DNA of 64,000 bases from contig JAIMKR010000005.1 in the NCBI GenBank assembly GCA_020692325.1, positions 38,958-102,957 on the forward strand, read 5' to 3'. The notes beneath the pieces were generated by a model. It worked only from the letters and a program-made list of their open reading frames with translations. It searched no databases and was not told the DNA's origin. Position numbers and translations under genes: made by a program. This stretch comes from Desulfocurvus sp. (GTDB lineage: Bacteria; Desulfobacterota; Desulfovibrionia; Desulfovibrionales; Desulfovibrionaceae). Of the stretch, positions 5,172 through 15,061 are shown one piece after another (within the stretch, counting starts at the first letter, position 1; every line of letters begins with the position of its first letter).

Positions 5172-5418
5172 TTTTTTTGAAAGCCGGGGTCGCCAGCGGC
5201 GGAGTCCCCGCCAGCGGTCCGGAATGAACTCCCGCTTCTCTCTGAGAGTACGGCCTCCCGGCAGGCGCCTTTTCTCTTTCGTCTTGGTGCTTCCTCATGC
5301 CCGGGCAGAGACTTTTCGCGCCGCCTGTCTTGCACTGATATGTGTGCTAGCGTACAGATGCCGCAAGGAATCAGGCCTATGCTCCTGATTCCCTTTCCTC
5401 CCAACACAGGAGGTTGCA

Positions 5419-6147
5419 ATGTCCAAGGCGCAGCTGCCATTGGATAATCATCTCTTGGCCGCCCTCCCTGCGGCGGTGCAGCAGCGTCTGCTGCCTTTTC
5501 TCGAACTCGTGTCCATGCCGCTCGGCCACGTTCTCTATGAGTCTGGCGTCACCATGCGCCATGTGTATTTCCCCATTGATTGCATCATCTCGTTGCTCTA
5601 CGTGATGGAGGACGGCGCATCGGCGGAGATCTCCGTTGTGGGCAACGAGGGGCTCATCGGCGTGGCCTTGTTCATGGGGGGGCTCAGCACCCCCAGCCGG
5701 GCCCTGGTGCAAAGCGCCGGTTCCGCCTACCAGATGGCCGGACAGCGGCTCACGGAGGAATTCAACCGCCATAGCGATCTGATGCTGCTTCTGCTGCGCT
5801 ACACCCAGGCGCTCATCACACAGATGGCCCAGACGGCGGTGTGCAACCGTCACCACAACATCGACCAGCAGCTGTGCCGCTGGTTGCTGCTCTCGTTGGA
5901 CCGCCTGCCCAGCAGCAAGCTGATCATGACGCAGGAACTCATCGCCAACATGCTTGGCGTGCGGCGCGAGGGCGTCACCGAGGCTGCGGGCAAGCTGCAG
6001 AAGCTCGGCGTCATAGAGTACAGCCGGGGGCACATCACTGTTCTGGACCGGCCCAGGCTCGAGGCGCTTTGCTGCGAGTGCTACGCCGTGGTCCAAAGGG
6101 AGACCGCCCGCCTGCTGCCGTATCTGCCCACGCGCCCAAAGGGCTGA
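5419..6147 (+). CDS. Crp/Fnr-family transcriptional regulator, paralogue A
   Basis: A 242-aa regulator with an N-terminal cyclic-nucleotide-binding-like beta-roll (roughly residues 15-125) and a C-terminal winged helix (HTH about residues 170-215, around ELIANMLGVRREGVTEAA). A good Shine-Dalgarno AGGAGG lies 6 nt before the ATG. It lacks the Fnr N-terminal cysteine cluster, so it is not an obvious [4Fe-4S] O2 sensor. The effector is unknown. It is strikingly similar, including long DNA tracts, to the regulator at 10822-11550, and more distantly related to 6344-7054. It sits next to envelope and stress genes, which are plausible but unproven targets. Confidence 0.88.
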   Translation: MSKAQLPLDNHLLAALPAAVQQRLLPFLELVSMPLGHVLYESGVTMRHVYFPIDCIISLLYVMEDGASAEISVVGNEGLIGVALFMGGLSTPSRALVQSAGSAYQMAGQRLTEEFNRHSDLMLLLLRYTQALITQMAQTAVCNRHHNIDQQLCRWLLLSLDRLPSSKLIMTQELIANMLGVRREGVTEAAGKLQKLGVIEYSRGHITVLDRPRLEALCCECYAVVQRETARLLPYLPTRPKG

Positions 6148-6343
6148 CGGGGCCACGTTCAGTCGATGGCCGCGGCGTCGCCTTGCGGTCTGGGCGTGCT
6201 TCACCCCCGGCGGTAATCCTCCTTGCGTGTCGTGGCGAACAGACAATGCGCCCAGCCAAAGCCTATGGCTGCCCTATCGGGACAGATCGGCACATTTCCC
6301 GCTCCAATCCTTGGCCTCCTTCGTGCTCCAGGACGGCATAGCC

Positions 6344-7054
6344 ATGTCGGAATCTTCGGTTGCGCCTGCCGTTGTCAACCTTCTGCTGGCCAGTCTCCCA
6401 ACGGAAGAAGCGGAGAGGGTTTTCGGATGTTGCGAACGCGTGGACTTGGCCTTTGGCGACATTTTGTGCGAACCGGATCAGCCCCTTCTGCACGTGTATT
6501 TCCCGCTGACGGGTTTTGTGTCGCGCGTCACGGCGCTGGCCGGACATCCGGCGCTGGAGATGGGCCTTGTGGGCAACGAGGGAATGCTCGGCGCGACCTT
6601 GTCCCTTGGGGTCAACGGCGCGCCCATGCGCACGGTGGTGCAGGGCGCGGGTCTGGCGCTTAAAATGACCGCCTCGCAATTGCGCCGCGAATTGAGCTGT
6701 TGCCCGTGCTTGCGGCAGACGCTTAACCGCTATCTGTTCGTTCTGCTGGCGCAGCTGGCGCAAATAGCCGCCTGCACGCATTTCCACGAGATTGAGCCGA
6801 GGCTGGTGTGCTGGCTTTTGATGACCCACGACAGGGCCCACGTCGATCATTTCCACCTCACCCATGCCTTTCTGGCCGACATGCTCGGCGTGCGCAGGAG
6901 CGGCATCTCCATCGCCGCTGGCGCGTTGCAGCAGCGGGGCCTCATCCGTTATTCCCGCGGCGAGATACGCATCCTTGATCGCCAGGGTCTGGAGGCCGCA
7001 TCCTGTGAATGCTACGCGGCCCTGCTGCAGGACTATTCGCAATTGTTCGCCTAA
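6344..7054 (+). CDS. Crp/Fnr-family transcriptional regulator, paralogue B (diverged)
   Basis: A 236-aa protein in the Crp/Fnr fold. It has a sensory beta-roll containing the family phrases HVYFPLTGFVS and LVGNEGMLGAT, then a C-terminal winged helix around FLADMLGVRRSGISIAAGAL. The start was placed at the ATG at 6344 because the open frame upstream (from 6227) has no family similarity and a purine-rich CCAGGA precedes this ATG. It follows paralogue A by ~200 bp in the same orientation. It is much less similar to paralogues A and C than they are to each other, suggesting an older duplication. Effector and regulon are unknown. Confidence 0.85.
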   Translation: MSESSVAPAVVNLLLASLPTEEAERVFGCCERVDLAFGDILCEPDQPLLHVYFPLTGFVSRVTALAGHPALEMGLVGNEGMLGATLSLGVNGAPMRTVVQGAGLALKMTASQLRRELSCCPCLRQTLNRYLFVLLAQLAQIAACTHFHEIEPRLVCWLLMTHDRAHVDHFHLTHAFLADMLGVRRSGISIAAGALQQRGLIRYSRGEIRILDRQGLEAASCECYAALLQDYSQLFA

Positions 7055-10029: not shown

Positions 10030-10239
10030 TTACGCTTTCGGTTCACCGGAAGCCTTGGCCGTGTTCTCCGCTTCGCCGTGGGCATGTTCTCCGCGTTCCT
10101 GGGCGCGGCCGGCCGAAACCTCCGCATGCCCCTCGGCCTTCAGCCGGTCGTCGTTGACCCATTGGCCCCAGGCGACCTTGGCCGCGCCGAGGTACTGCCT
10201 GCTTCTGCCCTGGATTTCCTCGACGAGGGAATTGGTCAT
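10030..10239 (-). CDS. CsbD-like small stress protein
   Basis: A 69-aa hydrophilic protein whose middle (QYLGAAKVAWGQWVNDDRL, then KAEGHAEVSAG) follows the CsbD family pattern of a short helix, a DD-x-LKAEG motif and a second helix. The ATG at 10239 is preceded by GGGAGC at a suitable distance. It starts 1 nt after the TGA of the 86-aa gene upstream, so the two are almost certainly co-translated. CsbD/YjbJ proteins are abundant stationary-phase and stress proteins of unknown biochemical role. The C-terminal tail (GRAQERGEHAHGEAENTAK) is longer and more charged than in typical members. Confidence 0.65.
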   Translation of the reverse strand: MTNSLVEEIQGRSRQYLGAAKVAWGQWVNDDRLKAEGHAEVSAGRAQERGEHAHGEAENTAKASGEPKA

Positions 10240-10240
10240 G

Positions 10241-10501
10241 TCAGTTGTGCTCCCGGCCATGCGTGGTGTCCGCCCGGCAGGCGTCCATGCTCGCCGTGGC
10301 TTCACCACAGACGGTATGCGGCGGACGGGCCGGGATCATGGGTACGTTGCTCATGGTGGATCGTTTGCCCTTATGCTTCTTGTCCTGCGGAGCGCGGTCT
10401 GGTCTGGCTTCAGGCGTTGTTCCGGCTACGGGTGCCCGGGGCTGTTTGTCCGCAGGCTTTTTAGCGAGGCCGCTCGTGGATTTCTTGTCAAAGGGCTTCA
10501 T
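10241..10501 (-). CDS. Small basic hypothetical protein, first gene of a CsbD operon
   Basis: An 86-aa protein rich in Lys, Pro and Ala, starting MKPFDKKSTSGLAKKPADK, with no recognised domain. The start is supported by TTCGGAGG five nt before the ATG at 10501. Its stop lies 1 nt before the CsbD start. The whole 100-nt upstream leader, including the ribosome binding site, resembles the leader of the 84-aa gene at 11835-12089. The low-complexity N-terminus suggests a disordered protein. No function is assigned. Confidence 0.5.
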   Translation of the reverse strand: MKPFDKKSTSGLAKKPADKQPRAPVAGTTPEARPDRAPQDKKHKGKRSTMSNVPMIPARPPHTVCGEATASMDACRADTTHGREHN

Positions 10502-10601
10502 ACTGACCTCCGAATGCATCTTTGCCTCGCGGTATTGCGAGGGCTTGGTATGGTCACAATGGCAGGGGCGCAGTGCCGCGTCGGTGCGCTGCCGCGCATA
10601 G
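10499..10601 (-). promoter_or_regulatory. Shared leader element, copy 1
   Basis: About 100 nt reading into the start of the 10501 gene. It begins with a 25-bp stretch (10577-10601) identical, in inverse orientation, to 12250-12274. It then aligns with the leader of the 12089 gene through CAGCGCACCGACGC, CATACC and TGCATTCGGAGG. It could be a regulatory 5' UTR or a vestigial coding stretch; the frame encodes QRTDA and C-H-x-x-H-T in both - strand copies. Confidence 0.45.
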
Positions 10602-10821
10602 ACCGGAAGCTCTTTTGGGGGGGCGTGTCTTTGTCGGACGAAAGATGAAGACGGACGGGCGGCGCAACGGATCGGAACGCGCCGGAGCCGCCTTTGCTCG
10701 GCACTTTCCGGCGCGTGCCTGCTCTCCCTTTTTGCCGGTGTGCGGTAACGCACAGACTGGGGCGCAAAACCGATTAAAGTCTAATGAGTTGTGAGTTTTT
10801 ATTAATCCAAGGATGCTCTCG

Positions 10822-11550
10822 ATGACCGAGCCCCCAACGCCAAAGCAGAACCATCTTCTGGCGGCCCTGCCAGCGGAAGTTTTTAACCGTCTGTCGCGGA
10901 AGCTTGAACTGGTGCCCATGCCCCTTGGCATGGTGCTGTACGAATCCGGCGACACCATGCGCCATGTCTACTTCCCTACGGATTCCATCGTCTCGCTGTT
11001 ATACGTCATGGAGAACGGCTCTTCTGCGGAAATTTCCGTGGTGGGCAACGAGGGCGTCATCGGCGTGGCCTTGTTCATGGGGGGAGAGAGCACGTCGAGC
11101 CGGGCCATAGTGCAGAGCGCAGGGCACGCCTACCGATTGCTCGGCCAGATCTTCAAGGACGAGTGCAGCCGCCACACCGGACTGCTGCTTTTGATGCTGC
11201 GCTACACCCAGGCGCTCATCACGCAGATGGCCCAGACGGCGGTATGCAACCGGCACCACAGCATCGACCAGCAGTTGTGCCGCTGGCTGCTGCTTTCGTT
11301 GGACCGCTTGTCGGATAACCAGTTGAGCATGACGCAGGAGCTCATCGCCAATATGCTCGGCGTGCGGCGTGAAGGCGTCACCGAGGCCGCGGGCAAGCTG
11401 CAGAAACTCGGCGTCATAGAGTACAGCCGGGGGCACATCACCGTGCTTAACCGGCCCAGGCTCGAAGCGCTCTGTTGTGAGTGCTACGCCGTGGTCAAAA
11501 GGGAAACCGACCGGTTGCTGCCGTATCTGCCCACCGCTCCAGAGGTGTAA
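10822..11550 (+). CDS. Crp/Fnr-family transcriptional regulator, paralogue C
   Basis: A 242-aa close paralogue of the regulator at 5419-6147, with the same beta-roll (MRHVYFPTDSIVSLLYVME) and winged helix (SMTQELIANMLGVRREG), and long stretches of near-identical DNA. The ATG at 10822 is preferred over the in-frame ATG at 10813 because AAGGA (10809-10813) is then 8 nt away. It is divergent from the CsbD operon across a ~320-bp region that holds leader element copy 1 and an AT-rich stretch just before the gene. Sensory ligand unknown; no Fnr-type cysteine cluster. Confidence 0.87.
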   Translation: MTEPPTPKQNHLLAALPAEVFNRLSRKLELVPMPLGMVLYESGDTMRHVYFPTDSIVSLLYVMENGSSAEISVVGNEGVIGVALFMGGESTSSRAIVQSAGHAYRLLGQIFKDECSRHTGLLLLMLRYTQALITQMAQTAVCNRHHSIDQQLCRWLLLSLDRLSDNQLSMTQELIANMLGVRREGVTEAAGKLQKLGVIEYSRGHITVLNRPRLEALCCECYAVVKRETDRLLPYLPTAPEV

Positions 11551-11581
11551 CGCGCTCGGAGAGGGGGGGGCGCAAAAGCGT

Positions 11582-11695
11582 CTATTCCCGCTCGTCCTTC
11601 TCTTCGTCCGCCTTGTCGGCGGCTTCCGTGGGTTTTGCGCGTACGACGGCGACAACCAGCAGCAGCCCGGCCAGCATGGCCGTAATCAAGTCCAT
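11582..11695 (-). CDS. 37-aa single-span membrane protein
   Basis: A very small gene. The ATG at 11695 is preceded by GGGAGG at 8 nt. The product has a hydrophobic helix (LITAMLAGLLLVVAVVRA, about residues 3-20) and a strongly charged tail (ADKADEEKDERE). The ribosome binding site, membrane segment and charge bias favour a real small membrane protein. It is convergent with paralogue C, whose stop is 32 nt away. No family recognised. Confidence 0.5.
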   Translation of the reverse strand: MDLITAMLAGLLLVVAVVRAKPTEAADKADEEKDERE

Positions 11696-11834
11696 CCCGC
11701 GCGCCTCCCGGTGTTTAAATGATGCTGGCAGCGGAGCTTGCCGCGTTTTGTCCCGCCTGCCTTCTTCATTTCATCCGGCTCGCGCCAGCAGGATGCCTTC
11801 AGACGTCTTGTCCCGTCACCGGGCAGGGACAGCA

Positions 11835-12089
11835 TCACTTGTCCTTGCCGATGTCATCGTCCGCGCCATGGTCCGCATGGAGCGAGTCGTACCAGGCCTG
11901 CGGTATGGTGAGGATCTTGAAGGGCCCCTTGGGTACTCTCGCCAAGGCCGTGTCCCGTATCGTCGGGCTGGGAAGCCCCTTCCCCACTGTTTCGGCATTG
12001 TTCGCCGCGTCATCGGAAGTTTCCGGGCGGGGCCCAAGGGAACAATGTGTGGGGACGTTCTTAACCTTTGGTTCCATGGGTGTGCTCAT
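11835..12089 (-). CDS. Small hypothetical protein (84 aa) behind a conserved leader
   Basis: The start at 12089 is well supported by TTCGGAGG five nt upstream, embedded in leader element copy 2. The product is hydrophilic with a C-terminal stretch KGPFKILTIPQAWYDSLHAD followed by an acidic tail. It resembles no family I recognise. The leader shared with the 86-aa/CsbD operon suggests common control and perhaps a common stress role. Confidence 0.5.
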   Translation of the reverse strand: MSTPMEPKVKNVPTHCSLGPRPETSDDAANNAETVGKGLPSPTIRDTALARVPKGPFKILTIPQAWYDSLHADHGADDDIGKDK

Positions 12090-12188
12090 GTGGGCCTCCG
12101 AATGCAGCCGGGACTCGCAGGATGGCGGGACCTCGGTATGCGAACCATGACAGGGATCCGGCGTGGCGTCGGTGCGCTGTCCCGCTTA
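12089..12188 (-). promoter_or_regulatory. Shared leader element, copy 2
   Basis: The upstream 100 nt of the 12089 gene align with copy 1 (10499-10601) from CAGCGCACCGACGC (12166-12179, - strand) down to TGCATTCGGAGG and the start codon. An in-frame stop near its upstream end argues that it is not part of a longer gene here. Confidence 0.45.
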
Positions 12189-12241
12189 CTCCGTCCCGCT
12201 TGCCCCGACCTGATCCGTTTTCCCCGCTTCTTTTGAAAGAC

Positions 12242-12436
12242 ATGCCGACCTATGCGCGGCAGCGCACCGACGCGCTGCACATCTTCAGCCATCCTCCTGA
12301 CCATGGCTTCTCCCTTTTTGAGGGCGCTGGCTTTGCCGGCGTGACGGAGCAGGTGGCTTCATCACGCCAGGCGATTCCCGCCACATCGGACCGGAGTTTG
12401 TACGGTCGGCCCAACCTCGCAGGAGGAACGACATGA
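12242..12436 (+). promoter_or_regulatory. Shared leader element, copy 3, with a possible 64-aa leader ORF
   Basis: 12250-12274 is identical to the reverse complement of 10577-10601. Here it faces right, towards the HEAT-repeat gene. An ATG at 12242 opens a 64-codon frame (MPTYARQRTDALHIF...) whose TGA overlaps the ATG of the HEAT gene, so it could be a translated, coupled leader peptide. The ribosome binding site for it is poor. Copies 2 and 3 lie back to back in one divergent intergenic region. Confidence 0.35.
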
Positions 12437-12942
12437 GCAGACGAGCCCACGCACGCATGACGCTGGACACCCACATGAGGGCGCTCGAAAGCCCCGACGG
12501 CATGCTTCGCCAGAGCGCAAGGGAAGGGCTGATCGCCCTGGGGGGGGCAGCGGTTACGCCGTTGATGCTGGCCTTGGGCAACGCCAAGGAGGCGCAGGTC
12601 CGCTGGGAGGCCGCCAAGGCGCTTGGCGCCATAGGCGAAGTCCGAGCCATTCCGGCTCTGGTGTCGGCCCTGGAGGACAGCGATTCGGATGTCATCTGGC
12701 TGGCTGCCGAGGCTTTGAGCCAGTTCGGCAGCGTGGCCTGGCCCGGGCTTCTGGCGGCCCTGGTCGCCGAGGGAACCGAGTCCGCGATTTTGCGCAAGGG
12801 CGCGCACCACGTTTTCGCCAGCCAGAAGGAAAGCGGCAACGGCGGCATGCTGGCTGTCCTGCAGACGGCGCTGGAAGCTGGGGCCTTGCCCGAAGCCGCG
12901 CCAATGGAGGCAAGCGAGATTCTGAAGTGGCTGAATGCGTAG
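12433..12942 (+). CDS. HEAT-repeat (PBS-lyase type) protein
   Basis: A 169-aa, all-helical protein with at least three HEAT-like repeats, e.g. VRWEAAKALGAIGEVRAI and VIWLAAEALSQFGSVAW. The alternating A/L positions and the G-x-x-A/V-P-x-L linker match the PBS-lyase HEAT subfamily. AGGAGG is placed 6 nt before the ATG at 12433. HEAT repeats mediate protein-protein contacts; no catalytic residues are expected. It lies in the stress gene cluster, directly after leader element copy 3. Confidence 0.75.
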   Translation: MSRRAHARMTLDTHMRALESPDGMLRQSAREGLIALGGAAVTPLMLALGNAKEAQVRWEAAKALGAIGEVRAIPALVSALEDSDSDVIWLAAEALSQFGSVAWPGLLAALVAEGTESAILRKGAHHVFASQKESGNGGMLAVLQTALEAGALPEAAPMEASEILKWLNA

Positions 12943-13018: not shown

Positions 13019-13264
13019 ATGGAAGCGATTCTTCTATTCATCGTGATTGGACTCATCGCGGGCTGGTTGGCCGGGATTTTGGTGAAGGGCGGCGGTTTCG
13101 GCGTTCTGGGCGACATCGTGGTGGGCATTCTGGGCGCGGTCATCGGCGGCTACCTCTTTGGAGCTTTCGGCATTGGCGGCCGGGGCCTGCTCGGCGGAGT
13201 GCTCGTCGCCACTGTTGGAGCAATACTTTTGATTTTCGTCTTGCGGCTGATCAAAAGGGTGTAA
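13019..13264 (+). CDS. GlsB/YeaQ/YmgE-family stress membrane protein, copy 1
   Basis: An 81-aa integral membrane protein with three hydrophobic segments (about residues 4-24, 30-52 and 57-77) and Gly-rich helices. It has the family phrases GLIAGWLAG and GDIVVGILGAVIGGYLF, and ends LRLIKRV as typical members do. GGAG lies 6 nt upstream of the ATG. Members are induced by acid or stationary-phase stress; the molecular role is unknown. With the next gene (a BON lipoprotein) it forms a module repeated at 14035-15061. Confidence 0.85.
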   Translation: MEAILLFIVIGLIAGWLAGILVKGGGFGVLGDIVVGILGAVIGGYLFGAFGIGGRGLLGGVLVATVGAILLIFVLRLIKRV

Positions 13265-13404
13265 CCGCGCCAAGAACGGACCAGCCGCCTCCGTCCGGGC
13301 CTGCGCTACACCGGCGAATACGTGTTCAGAAGCGGGCCGCAGCCTCGCGAGTATGCCGGGCCAGCGACAACCTCCTTTGACCTTTAACCAGTTAGGAGCA
13401 CCGA

Positions 13405-13725
13405 ATGACTCTCTACAAGCGAATTATCCTGTTGTGCCTCAGCGTGATGCTGGCCTTCGCCCTTGGCTGCGCCGCCACCTCCACTCATGAGGGAACCGGC
13501 GGCTACATCGACGACTCCGCTATCACTGCCAAGGTGAAGTCTGGCCTTCTGGGCGAACCCGGCATGAATTCCAATGACATCCAGGTGGAGACCTTCAAGG
13601 GCGTTGTGCAGCTTTCCGGCTTTGTCACTTCCGCCGCGCAGATCAACACCGCTGTCGCCATAACGCGCAAGGTCCAGGGCGTGAAGGATGTGCGCAGCAA
13701 TATGGTCGTCAAGGGTCAGCAGTAA
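13405..13725 (+). CDS. BON-domain lipoprotein (single domain)
   Basis: A 106-aa precursor with a lipoprotein signal (lipobox ALGC, Cys22) and one BON domain (about residues 35-103) containing ITAKVKSGLLGE, ETFKGVVQLSGFV and KVQGVKDVRSNM. TTAGGAG precedes the ATG by about 8 nt. It is the single-domain relative of the two-domain lipoprotein at 14495-15061, sharing nearly the same ETFKGVVQLSGFV strand. Expected outer-membrane-attached envelope-stress protein of OsmY type. Confidence 0.85.
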   Translation: MTLYKRIILLCLSVMLAFALGCAATSTHEGTGGYIDDSAITAKVKSGLLGEPGMNSNDIQVETFKGVVQLSGFVTSAAQINTAVAITRKVQGVKDVRSNMVVKGQQ

Positions 13726-14034
13726 AGTTTTCCGCCTCGGCCTCTGCGCCGCCCTGGCTGTTGTCCTCCTCTAACGCGGCTTGGCCCGGCGGGGCCGCCT
13801 CCCTCTCGCAAGCAGGGGGGGAGGCGGCGAACAAAGGTTCGCCCCCCCGCCCGGGTTTCTTGGCCGTCTCGCACAGTCCATGTGGAGAGTGTGGCCTTCT
13901 CTGTCCCTTGCCGCCGCACGGCGCGCGCGAACCTTGGCCCCCGCGGGGAGAAGTGGAGAGGTGGATGGGATCTTCGGACATAAGGAGCGGTGCAGACGGT
14001 TACGCGCCTCAGCGGTGGCAAGGAGGGAAGACGA
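13726..14034. other. Intergenic region with a GC-rich hairpin
   Basis: About 310 bp without a credible gene. It holds a hairpin of roughly 9-10 bp (CCGCCTCCC at 13795-13803 with GGGAGGCGG near 13818-13826). This may terminate the BON transcript, although no clean T-run follows it. The ribosome binding site AAGGAGGG of the next gene is at its right end. Confidence 0.4.
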
Positions 14035-14409
14035 ATGAGAGACTTCATCTGGTACGCATTGATCGGTTTGGCCACGGGCCTTTTGGCGCGCGCAGTGAAC
14101 CGCGGCGGGCGCTTCGGCGCCATTGGGGACGGCGGAGTCGGCGTCCTTGGCGCGGTGCTCGCCGTGCTGCTGTACCACTTCGCCCTTGAGGGCAGCGGAA
14201 TTTTGAGTTCGGCCGCTGTGGCCGCCGTAGGAGCGGCCCTTCTGGTTCTCGATTTGCGGCTGATCCAAAGAGCTTTTGAGGAACGCAGCATGTCGCGGAC
14301 CTTTAGGAGGCGCAGCTCCTCTCTCTTCAAGCACATTCCCTTTCCGCCAAGGCCGCGGAATGAAAGCATTGAGGCCTGCCGCGTATGCGGACGGAGGCAC
14401 CTCCGCTAG
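14035..14409 (+). CDS. GlsB/YeaQ-like membrane protein, copy 2, with C-terminal extension
   Basis: A 124-aa protein. Its first ~80 residues align with the GlsB-type gene at 13019 (WYALIGLATGLLARAVNRG, then GDGGVGVLGAVLAVLLY, and LVLDLRLIQRAF). The start at 14035 follows AAGGAGGG by 8 nt; the longer frame upstream has no ribosome binding site. Unlike copy 1 it does not stop after LRLI-x-R. It continues for about 45 residues that are Arg- and Ser-rich (RTFRRRSSSLFKH) with a late Cys-x-x-Cys-like pattern (ACRVCGRR). This looks like readthrough after loss of the ancestral stop. Confidence 0.75.
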   Translation: MRDFIWYALIGLATGLLARAVNRGGRFGAIGDGGVGVLGAVLAVLLYHFALEGSGILSSAAVAAVGAALLVLDLRLIQRAFEERSMSRTFRRRSSSLFKHIPFPPRPRNESIEACRVCGRRHLR

Positions 14410-14494
14410 GCGCCGCCGGCGCATGTGTCTGAGATCTTACGGACCTTGTAACGTGCACCATGAACCACCCTGCCACCCTCCAAGGAGCGATCGG

Positions 14495-15061
14495 ATGACC
14501 TTGCGGAAACAACTCTCCCTGTTGAGCCTTGCCACGCTTTTGGCTTTGATCTTCGGCTGTTCCTCCACTCCCAACAAGGAGGGGACCGGGGGATATGTAG
14601 ATGACGCGGCCGTCACCGCCAAGGTCAAGGCCGAGATCCTCCAGGCTCCCTCACTGAAGTCCGCCGAAATCAACGTGGAAACCTTCAAGGGCGTTGTGCA
14701 ACTCTCCGGATTTGTCGGCTCCCAGGCCGAGATAGCCACTGCGGCCGAAACGGCGCGCAAGGTCCAGGGCGTCACCACGGTGCGCAACAATGTACAGATC
14801 AAGGGCGCCAGCAACGCCACCCAGGAAGGCGCGGGAGAGTTTGTGGACAACGCCGCCATCACCGCCAAGGTCAAGGCCGCCCTGCTCAGGGATGCCAGTC
14901 TGAAGTCCGCCGAGATCAGTGTGGAGACCTTCAATGGTGTTGTGCAGCTGACCGGCTTCGTCGGCTACCAGAACGAAGCCGACACCGCGGCCAAGCTTGC
15001 GGCCAAGGTCAAGGGCGTGAAGAGCGTGACGAACGACATCCGCATCAAGGGCAGGCAGTAG
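14495..15061 (+). CDS. BON-domain lipoprotein with two tandem BON domains
   Basis: A 188-aa precursor with lipobox IFGC (Cys22) and two BON domains (about residues 33-103 and 115-187) that are near copies of each other: SAEINVETFKGVVQLSGFV and SAEISVETFNGVVQLTGFV. The start at 14495 is set by AAGGAG 7 nt upstream and the lipoprotein signal; the longer frame from 14276 overlaps the previous gene. The internal duplication and the similarity to 13405-13725 show recent expansion. A hairpin at 15074-15110 (GGACCGCG/CGCGGTCC) follows the stop. Confidence 0.87.
   Translation: MTLRKQLSLLSLATLLALIFGCSSTPNKEGTGGYVDDAAVTAKVKAEILQAPSLKSAEINVETFKGVVQLSGFVGSQAEIATAAETARKVQGVTTVRNNVQIKGASNATQEGAGEFVDNAAITAKVKAALLRDASLKSAEISVETFNGVVQLTGFVGYQNEADTAAKLAAKVKGVKSVTNDIRIKGRQ

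Follow-up and report, generated by a model that had tools for sequence, protein, structure and literature searches.

A putative Crp/Fnr-type operator in the leader shared by three small transcription units of a Desulfocurvus genome

What is the short leader that recurs before three small transcription units in a 64,000-nucleotide (nt) stretch of Desulfocurvus sp. (GCA_020692325.1, JAIMKR010000005.1:38,958–102,957; hereafter the window, its genome being labelled G000)? A first inspection of the letters alone (the sequence-only reading) had reported a 25-bp identical block at 10577–10601 on the minus strand and, inverted, at 12250–12274 on the plus strand, and had offered a regulatory RNA, a promoter module or a leader peptide as its nature. 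The block is present as reported and forms the core of an inverted repeat, I1 (39 nt, 87% complementary). Judging from sequence, we give a probability of roughly 0.86 to the reading that the block is a Crp/Fnr-type operator and that the "leader" consists of a class II activator promoter and, behind it, a short 5' untranslated region (UTR). This reading is carried by a palindrome, its position before regulator genes and the three units, a fixed spacing to the −10 element, its occurrence in genomes that also have the regulator gene, and its conservation in other genera. The module probably belongs to a mobile stress regulon.

The minus-strand copies A and B, which precede an 86-amino-acid protein gene followed by a CsbD-like gene and an 84-amino-acid protein gene, respectively, align over about 104 nt up to the start codon, both with ATTCGGAGG, in agreement with the similar leader of about 100 nt described earlier. 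Being alike from block to start codon they are termed type I. The third copy, C, had been said to lead into a HEAT-repeat gene; it does lie about 160 nt upstream of that gene, but its resemblance to A and B is confined to the block and the adjacent −10 region. The genome has a fourth copy, D (G000:C20:22300), upstream of a 336-amino-acid open reading frame (ORF) that gives the impression, and only that, of a phosphotransferase. C and D, the type II copies, have the block and the following −10 region in common and differ from A and B further on. B and C are divergent, their operator centres being 82 bp apart.

The block contains a 16-bp palindrome of Crp/Fnr length, TGTNCGnTAnCGNACA, the inverted repeat that a Crp/Fnr class II promoter calls for, which is degenerate in B. 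With up to three mismatches, TGCGCGNCAGCGCACMGAC, a pattern derived from the block and related copies, matches the window five times against 0.63 expected, and none of 100 shuffles reaches five. The matches are A, A on the opposite strand, B, C and a site before the gene at 10813. This gene (crp1) and those at 5419 (crp2) and 6344 (crp3) encode Crp/Fnr proteins, and the palindrome precedes all three, a point that the first inspection had missed.

The sites were ranked with a symmetric matrix (22-bp scoring window) built from the 45 distinct sites that precede crp1 homologues in other bacteria. These were drawn from the best loci, at least 80, from named genomes with homologues of the 10813 protein (77–94% identity), mostly of Pseudomonas and also of Aeromonas, Nitrosomonas, Vogesella, Chromobacterium and Desulfovibrio. 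We excluded L126, L127, L135, L147, L184 and L189, whose crp gene agrees at 100% with that of a Desulfovibrionaceae genome, leaving 74 of the 80 loci (601,681 bases, Desulfovibrionaceae excluded). Among the six, the "Proteobacteria bacterium" contig L135 shows 100% identity over 700 nt of its crp gene to G004, a member of the window's genus. As to L184 and L189, a contig filed as Phycisphaerales (UBA2266), probably misbinned, has a crp gene that agrees at 100% over 700 nt with G065 and Desulfovibrio sp. UBA4079. A first version of the matrix additionally contained one L135 site; the top five window sites are identical under both, and the first version supplied the scores given below for L018, L107, L008, G292, the loci checked after the leader-model search and the upstream sites of crp1 copies within the family.

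The five best window sites (26.6, 21.7, 15.7, 15.7 and 12.8) are those before the three Crp genes together with blocks A and C; the sixth scores 5.9. None of 200 column-permuted matrices yielded five window sites of at least 12 (mean 0.39, maximum 3), and 100 first-order simulated windows contained a mean of 0.28 such sites and never more than two.

The spacing between palindrome and promoter was studied in an alignment of 18 copies (12 type I, 6 type II), all from Desulfovibrionaceae and hence related rather than independent. Among the 69 positions after the operator centre the sole invariant ones are 1, 3–7 and 9–11, which comprise the right half and a GAC flank, and 31 and 35. The latter two are the second (A) and sixth (T) bases of a −10-like hexamer and are kept in 18/18. 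All 18 copies place this hexamer about 30 nt from the operator centre, as in a class II promoter, an offset of 30 being the best. The extended −10 TG is present in 11 of 12 type I copies and in none of the six of type II. An invariant right half with −10 bases at a fixed spacing is, as far as sequence can tell, class II activator geometry, and of the ideas first put forward it is the promoter module, an operator palindrome with a −10-like hexamer at fixed spacing, that is upheld. In E. coli, CRP class II promoters likewise consist of a 16-bp TGT...ACA palindrome centred about 41.5 bp before the start and a weak −10. The start of transcript A is predicted at about 10549.

A similar spacing is seen in the 74 loci. 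The 37 distinct crp1 sites no more than 130 nt from the gene include 17 with a TATNNT-like hexamer at offset 29 and six with one at offset 30; no other offset between 14 and 49 accounts for more than two. The arrangement of block A recurs in Pseudomonas panipatensis (L179), where TATGCGCGGTAGCGCACCGAC and then, at equal spacing, TTGCCATTGT stand before a small protein gene.

All three window proteins possess a Crp-type helix-turn-helix (HTH). The 10813 protein, Crp1, also possesses a cNMP-type domain, with a modest score, and a CRP/FNR fold, which was predicted for this protein only; the 5419 protein falls just under the Pfam cut-off for the cNMP domain and the 6344 protein has no cNMP match. 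The AlphaFold model of Crp1 (predicted local distance difference test score, pLDDT, 86) matches the structures of FNR, CRP and GlxR with Z of about 19–20 over about 215 residues, and also NtcA. Comparison of 82 Crp1-type sequences (80 loci and two from the window) showed the recognition helix, VRREGVTEAA, to be invariant at eight of its ten positions, including all of VRREG; 80 of the sequences have V189, and 81 have E or D at 191. C145, C156, C222 and C224 are invariant in 82/82, and H148 and H149 are kept in at least 97%, a set of residues which, to go by the sequences, could form a metal or redox sensor. Crp3 retains C145, H149, C222 and C224; H148 is not kept, and position 156 is V, followed directly by a cysteine.

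The sequence-only reading had proposed a search for further copies, and this was successful. Within the genus, leader and regulator are present in the same six of 15 genomes and the other nine have neither; more divergent copies occur in genera g36, g39 and g51. One g39 copy (L050) precedes the same gene as D, and the divergent copies in L078 and L082 read GTGCGATAGCGCAC. The absence of more copies and of conservation, which would have spoken against the original proposal, was thus not observed, since related genomes carry further copies. Across 288 Desulfovibrionaceae genomes a close Crp1 homologue (E≤1e-40) is found in 14, and the leader in 10 (G000, G002, G004, G005, G007, G012, G065, G078, G079 and G292), all within the 14 carriers. 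Of the 16 crp1 copies, 14 (in 12 of the 14 genomes) have a site of at least 14 within 260 nt upstream.

The leader model (R1) was searched in the family at E≤0.05, stricter filters losing weak matches. It matched 30 genomes, of which 10 were taken as real; G292, a weak match (E=0.0024), was counted because it has an operator of 26.2 with AAATGT at offset 30. No matrix site of at least 14 was found in the 20 loci of the remaining 20 genomes, the sequences inspected being L081, L084 and L093–L095. Two matches were rejected: that in G043 (L028) is weak and lies in an apparent coding region of another gene, and that in L106 is weak and lies inside an ORF-like region. Thirty-eight control loci contained five sites of at least 14, four of them within real loci (two in L050, two in L082); the fifth (L051) looks like chance.

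Beyond the family, a palindrome with no more than three mismatches to TGTGCGnTAnCGCACA is found within 320 nt upstream of the crp1 homologue in 49 of the 74 loci, and a matrix site of at least 14 within 250 nt in 54. In total the 74 loci contain 196 sites of at least 14, 60 before crp1 and 136 elsewhere, some of the latter in front of second Crp genes. As controls for the 136, 20 simulations of the whole set gave 0–3, and 200 permuted matrices gave a mean of 2.0 and a maximum of 17. The genes behind such sites were listed using the first matrix and all 80 loci, giving 113 distinct ORFs after 139 sites, four of the ORFs coming from L126, L127, L135 and L184 and some being probably spurious. Pfam assigned them to 42 families, among them Crp HTH (13), BON (8), DUF5670 (7), DUF3309 (5), CsbD (4), Ysc84 (4) and GGDEF (3); these counts describe what follows the sites and are not an enrichment over neighbours, the loci being stress clusters by linkage.

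The palindrome might instead be the operator of a different regulator, or a repressor site, its tie to a Crp-type protein coming only from a cluster that travels together. We regard this as unlikely. Any of the three Crp/Fnr proteins encoded in the region could bind, and the D locus has a second strong operator-like site (L008:1696–1717, 23.4) just upstream of a TATAAT-like hexamer, with opposite-strand genes adjoining, a position that would suit repression. The presence of a site before the crp1 homologue in 54 of the 74 loci and the −10 spacing of the gene-near sites, which is that of class II activation, argue the other way, as do the length and TGT...ACA ends of the palindrome, which match Crp/Fnr sites.

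Under the Crp/Fnr class II reading, a Crp1-type dimer encoded nearby (by the genes at 10813, 5419 and perhaps 6344) would bind the palindrome, whose centre would lie about 41.5 bp ahead of the transcription start. The bound dimer would help RNA polymerase to use a weak, often extended −10 and would thereby turn on units A, B and C as well as its own genes. Of this, we infer the binding by a Crp1-type regulator, activation as opposed to repression, the exact starts, and stress as the signal.

A cis-acting regulatory RNA, such as a riboswitch or a thermosensor, within the leader appears most improbable. About 60 nt past the −10 are similar in the type I copies and include a CTCGC...GCGAG hairpin before the ribosome binding site; RNAalifold indicated changes on both sides in two of six predicted pairs, a weak signal, and L012 alone folds with a z-score of −2.1. 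Against these stand z-scores of +0.6 to −2.1 over 12 copies, mostly near 0, and a consensus energy of only −3.5 kcal/mol. Rfam gave no match at gathering scores, and a covarying structure was not found either. Compensatory substitutions, the check first suggested for an RNA, are seen in none of the five pairs of the single visible hairpin, and its U-A pair is broken in 6/11. Furthermore, C and D have the block but not the hairpin part.

The remaining idea, a leader peptide (MRDSAPT...) whose translation is coupled to the start codon downstream, has hardly any probability in our estimation. In A, B, L018 and L023 its frame closes with a TGA that overlaps the following ATG, and the peptide looks similar across many copies, yet its ATG is lost in B and L017, with no ribosome binding site seen before it; the frame is broken in L079/L080 by a 2-nt length change and in L019 and L017 continues into the gene behind it. 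The companion check, for synonymous substitutions, gave a lean to the third codon position in the pairs L014/L017 (1/3/5), L017/L039 (4/0/6) and D/L013 (0/0/3), but when four pairs of related type I copies are pooled, the differences number 15/15/17 at codon positions 1/2/3. Neither a conserved start and frame nor a synonymous bias was thus detected. The pattern QRTDA...CHxxHT, noticed in the sequence-only reading, does occur in A and B, in frame with both ATGs and 90 nt ahead of them. In B, however, the frame has a stop just upstream and lacks a start codon, and an in-frame stop also interrupts the orthologue of A in L023; the pattern is conserved promoter DNA read in one frame. The frame was also considered as an N-terminal extension and rejected on account of lost starts, stops and broken frames.

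Several observations weigh against the class II activator reading. Because window sites contributed to the seed consensus, the ranking within the window is in part circular and not wholly independent, the counts in other bacteria being less affected; single scores of up to 20.4 also arose among the 100 simulated windows. Operator B is weak (2.9, rank 9–10), its orthologous site in L018 scoring 15.2. As to spacing, a good −10 is missing at offset 29–30 in the promoter of the 10813 gene, only one of 16 distinct sites more than 130 nt from crp1 has the hexamer at 29–30 (at 29), and only 35 of 113 other sites reach a −10 score of at least 3 at offsets 28–31, the only ones tried and with the better-scoring strand chosen. 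Four of the 14 carriers (G031, G033, G090 and G227) have no match to the leader model, the crp1 copies of G227 and G033 have no site of at least 14 within 260 nt upstream, and 20 of the 74 crp1 homologues elsewhere have none within 250 nt. Finally, Crp3-type proteins may share the site.

The features of the window are collected in the table below.

Table. Predicted promoter elements, operators and genes in the window (scores from the final matrix)
Feature	Position	Strand	Remarks
Operator before crp2 (5419)	5338..5359	+	26.6, rank 1; palindrome TGTGTGCTAGCGTACA
TATGCT in class II position, promoter of the 5419 gene	5378–5383	+	
Crp2 gene	5419..6147	+	HTH_Crp_2 E=2.6e-15; 79% identical to 10813 protein
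Operator before crp3 (6344), the third Crp/Fnr gene	6223..6244	+	12.8, rank 5
Crp3 gene	6344..7054	+	HTH_Crp_2 E=2.3e-14
CsbD-like gene (frame), second of unit A	10030..10308	-	PF05532 E=4.6e-9, 36.5 bits, under the Pfam cut-off of 40
86-amino-acid small protein gene, first of unit A	10241..10501	-	no Pfam match
Post-−10 sequence of A and predicted short 5' UTR with ATTCGGAGG, to the ATG of the 86-amino-acid gene	10499..10555	-	hairpin without compensatory changes
Predicted extended −10 of A (TGC-CATTGT)	10556..10561	-	30–35 nt past operator centre
Operator A	10580..10601	-	15.7, rank 3–4; before 86-amino-acid/CsbD unit
Operator before crp1 (10813)	10736..10757	+	21.7, rank 2
Crp1 gene, proposed operator binder	10813..11550	+	HTH_Crp_2 (PF13545) E=1.7e-15; cNMP_binding (PF00027) E=3.6e-8
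84-amino-acid small protein gene, behind B	11835..12089	-	no Pfam match
Predicted extended −10 of B (TGT-CATGGT)	12144..12149	-	
Operator B	12168..12189	-	2.9, rank 9–10; left half degenerate, right half intact
Operator C	12250..12271	+	15.7; divergent from B, before HEAT-repeat gene
Predicted −10 of C (CATCCT)	12290..12295	+	
HEAT-repeat protein gene	12433..12942	+	PF13646 (HEAT_2) E=1.1e-13

Downstream of the HEAT-repeat gene, at 13019–15061, transglycosylase-associated-like and BON-type genes alternate repeatedly; they could be transcribed from promoter C. Elsewhere in G000 (contig C20, at about 2.7 and 3.2 kb), two operator-like sites about 400 bp apart, L107:1501 (18.8) and L107:1909 (15.9), are possible further members of the regulon, the latter facing an integral-membrane ORF that resembles a mechanosensitive channel. 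In G002 (C3:41272–41369, L042), half a type I leader without the operator lies upstream of a transporter-like gene and includes a long palindrome, CCGTGACA...TGTCACGG.

How does this system compare with those already described? It resembles the E. coli CRP class II promoters in its 16-bp palindrome, centre distance, weak −10 and a regulator with a cNMP-type domain and Crp HTH; the half-site is TGTNCG instead of the TGTGA of CRP, and the targets include CsbD, BON, HEAT and small proteins. FNR, HcpR, DNR and NnrR belong to the same superfamily, and the FNR of A. fischeri is among the best structural matches of Crp1. The FNR operator is TTGAT-N4-ATCAA, from which the present one differs. Crp1 also lacks the N-terminal cysteine cluster of FNR type, having no cysteine in its first 100 residues and its conserved cysteines at 145, 156, 222 and 224. 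Families similar to those found here, CsbD-like, BON/OsmY and transglycosylase-associated, belong to the RpoS regulon of E. coli; in the present system genes of this kind go with a Crp/Fnr operator, and nothing in G000 exceeds the cut-off of the RpoS model (best 302 bits against 378.7), the best match being probably the housekeeping sigma factor.

The RedB subgroup (PMC9603854) is, like the Crp1 type, a broadly spread and formerly uncharacterised Crp/Fnr subgroup. Its abstract describes an energy/redox regulon, the passage on its motif concerns non-palindromic, AT-rich recognition, unlike the operator described here, and the word CsbD is absent from its text. Passages of PMC8510549 employ matrices of known Crp/Fnr regulators; a survey of Crp/Fnr motifs cited in that paper (Matsui 2013) may list the palindrome. 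Two other hits proved irrelevant: the match in PMC6446978 is a primer sequence, and PMC10778927 concerns Deinococcus and is unrelated. The literature searched yielded no paper on the regulon and none combining Crp, Fnr and CsbD. Regulators of this class and promoters of this logic are known; in that literature, which most subscription journals lie outside, the operator, the regulon and its spread appear undescribed.

A broader proposal, which is tentative and on balance doubtful, is that Crp1 and the TGTNCGnTAnCGNACA operator constitute a horizontally transferred general stress regulon of Gamma-, Beta- and Deltaproteobacteria, taking on in the Desulfovibrionaceae some of the role that RpoS has in enterics, with a Cys/His metal or redox switch (C145, H148, H149, C156, C222, C224). 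Under the operator reading, an odd repeat becomes a concrete regulon, in which a single Crp/Fnr subfamily and a single operator go with poorly understood stress proteins that recur as a set. These proteins, CsbD, BON, DUF3309, DUF5670 and Ysc84, span distant Proteobacteria, and a common regulator would give a handle on when and why they are produced, including in organisms without RpoS.

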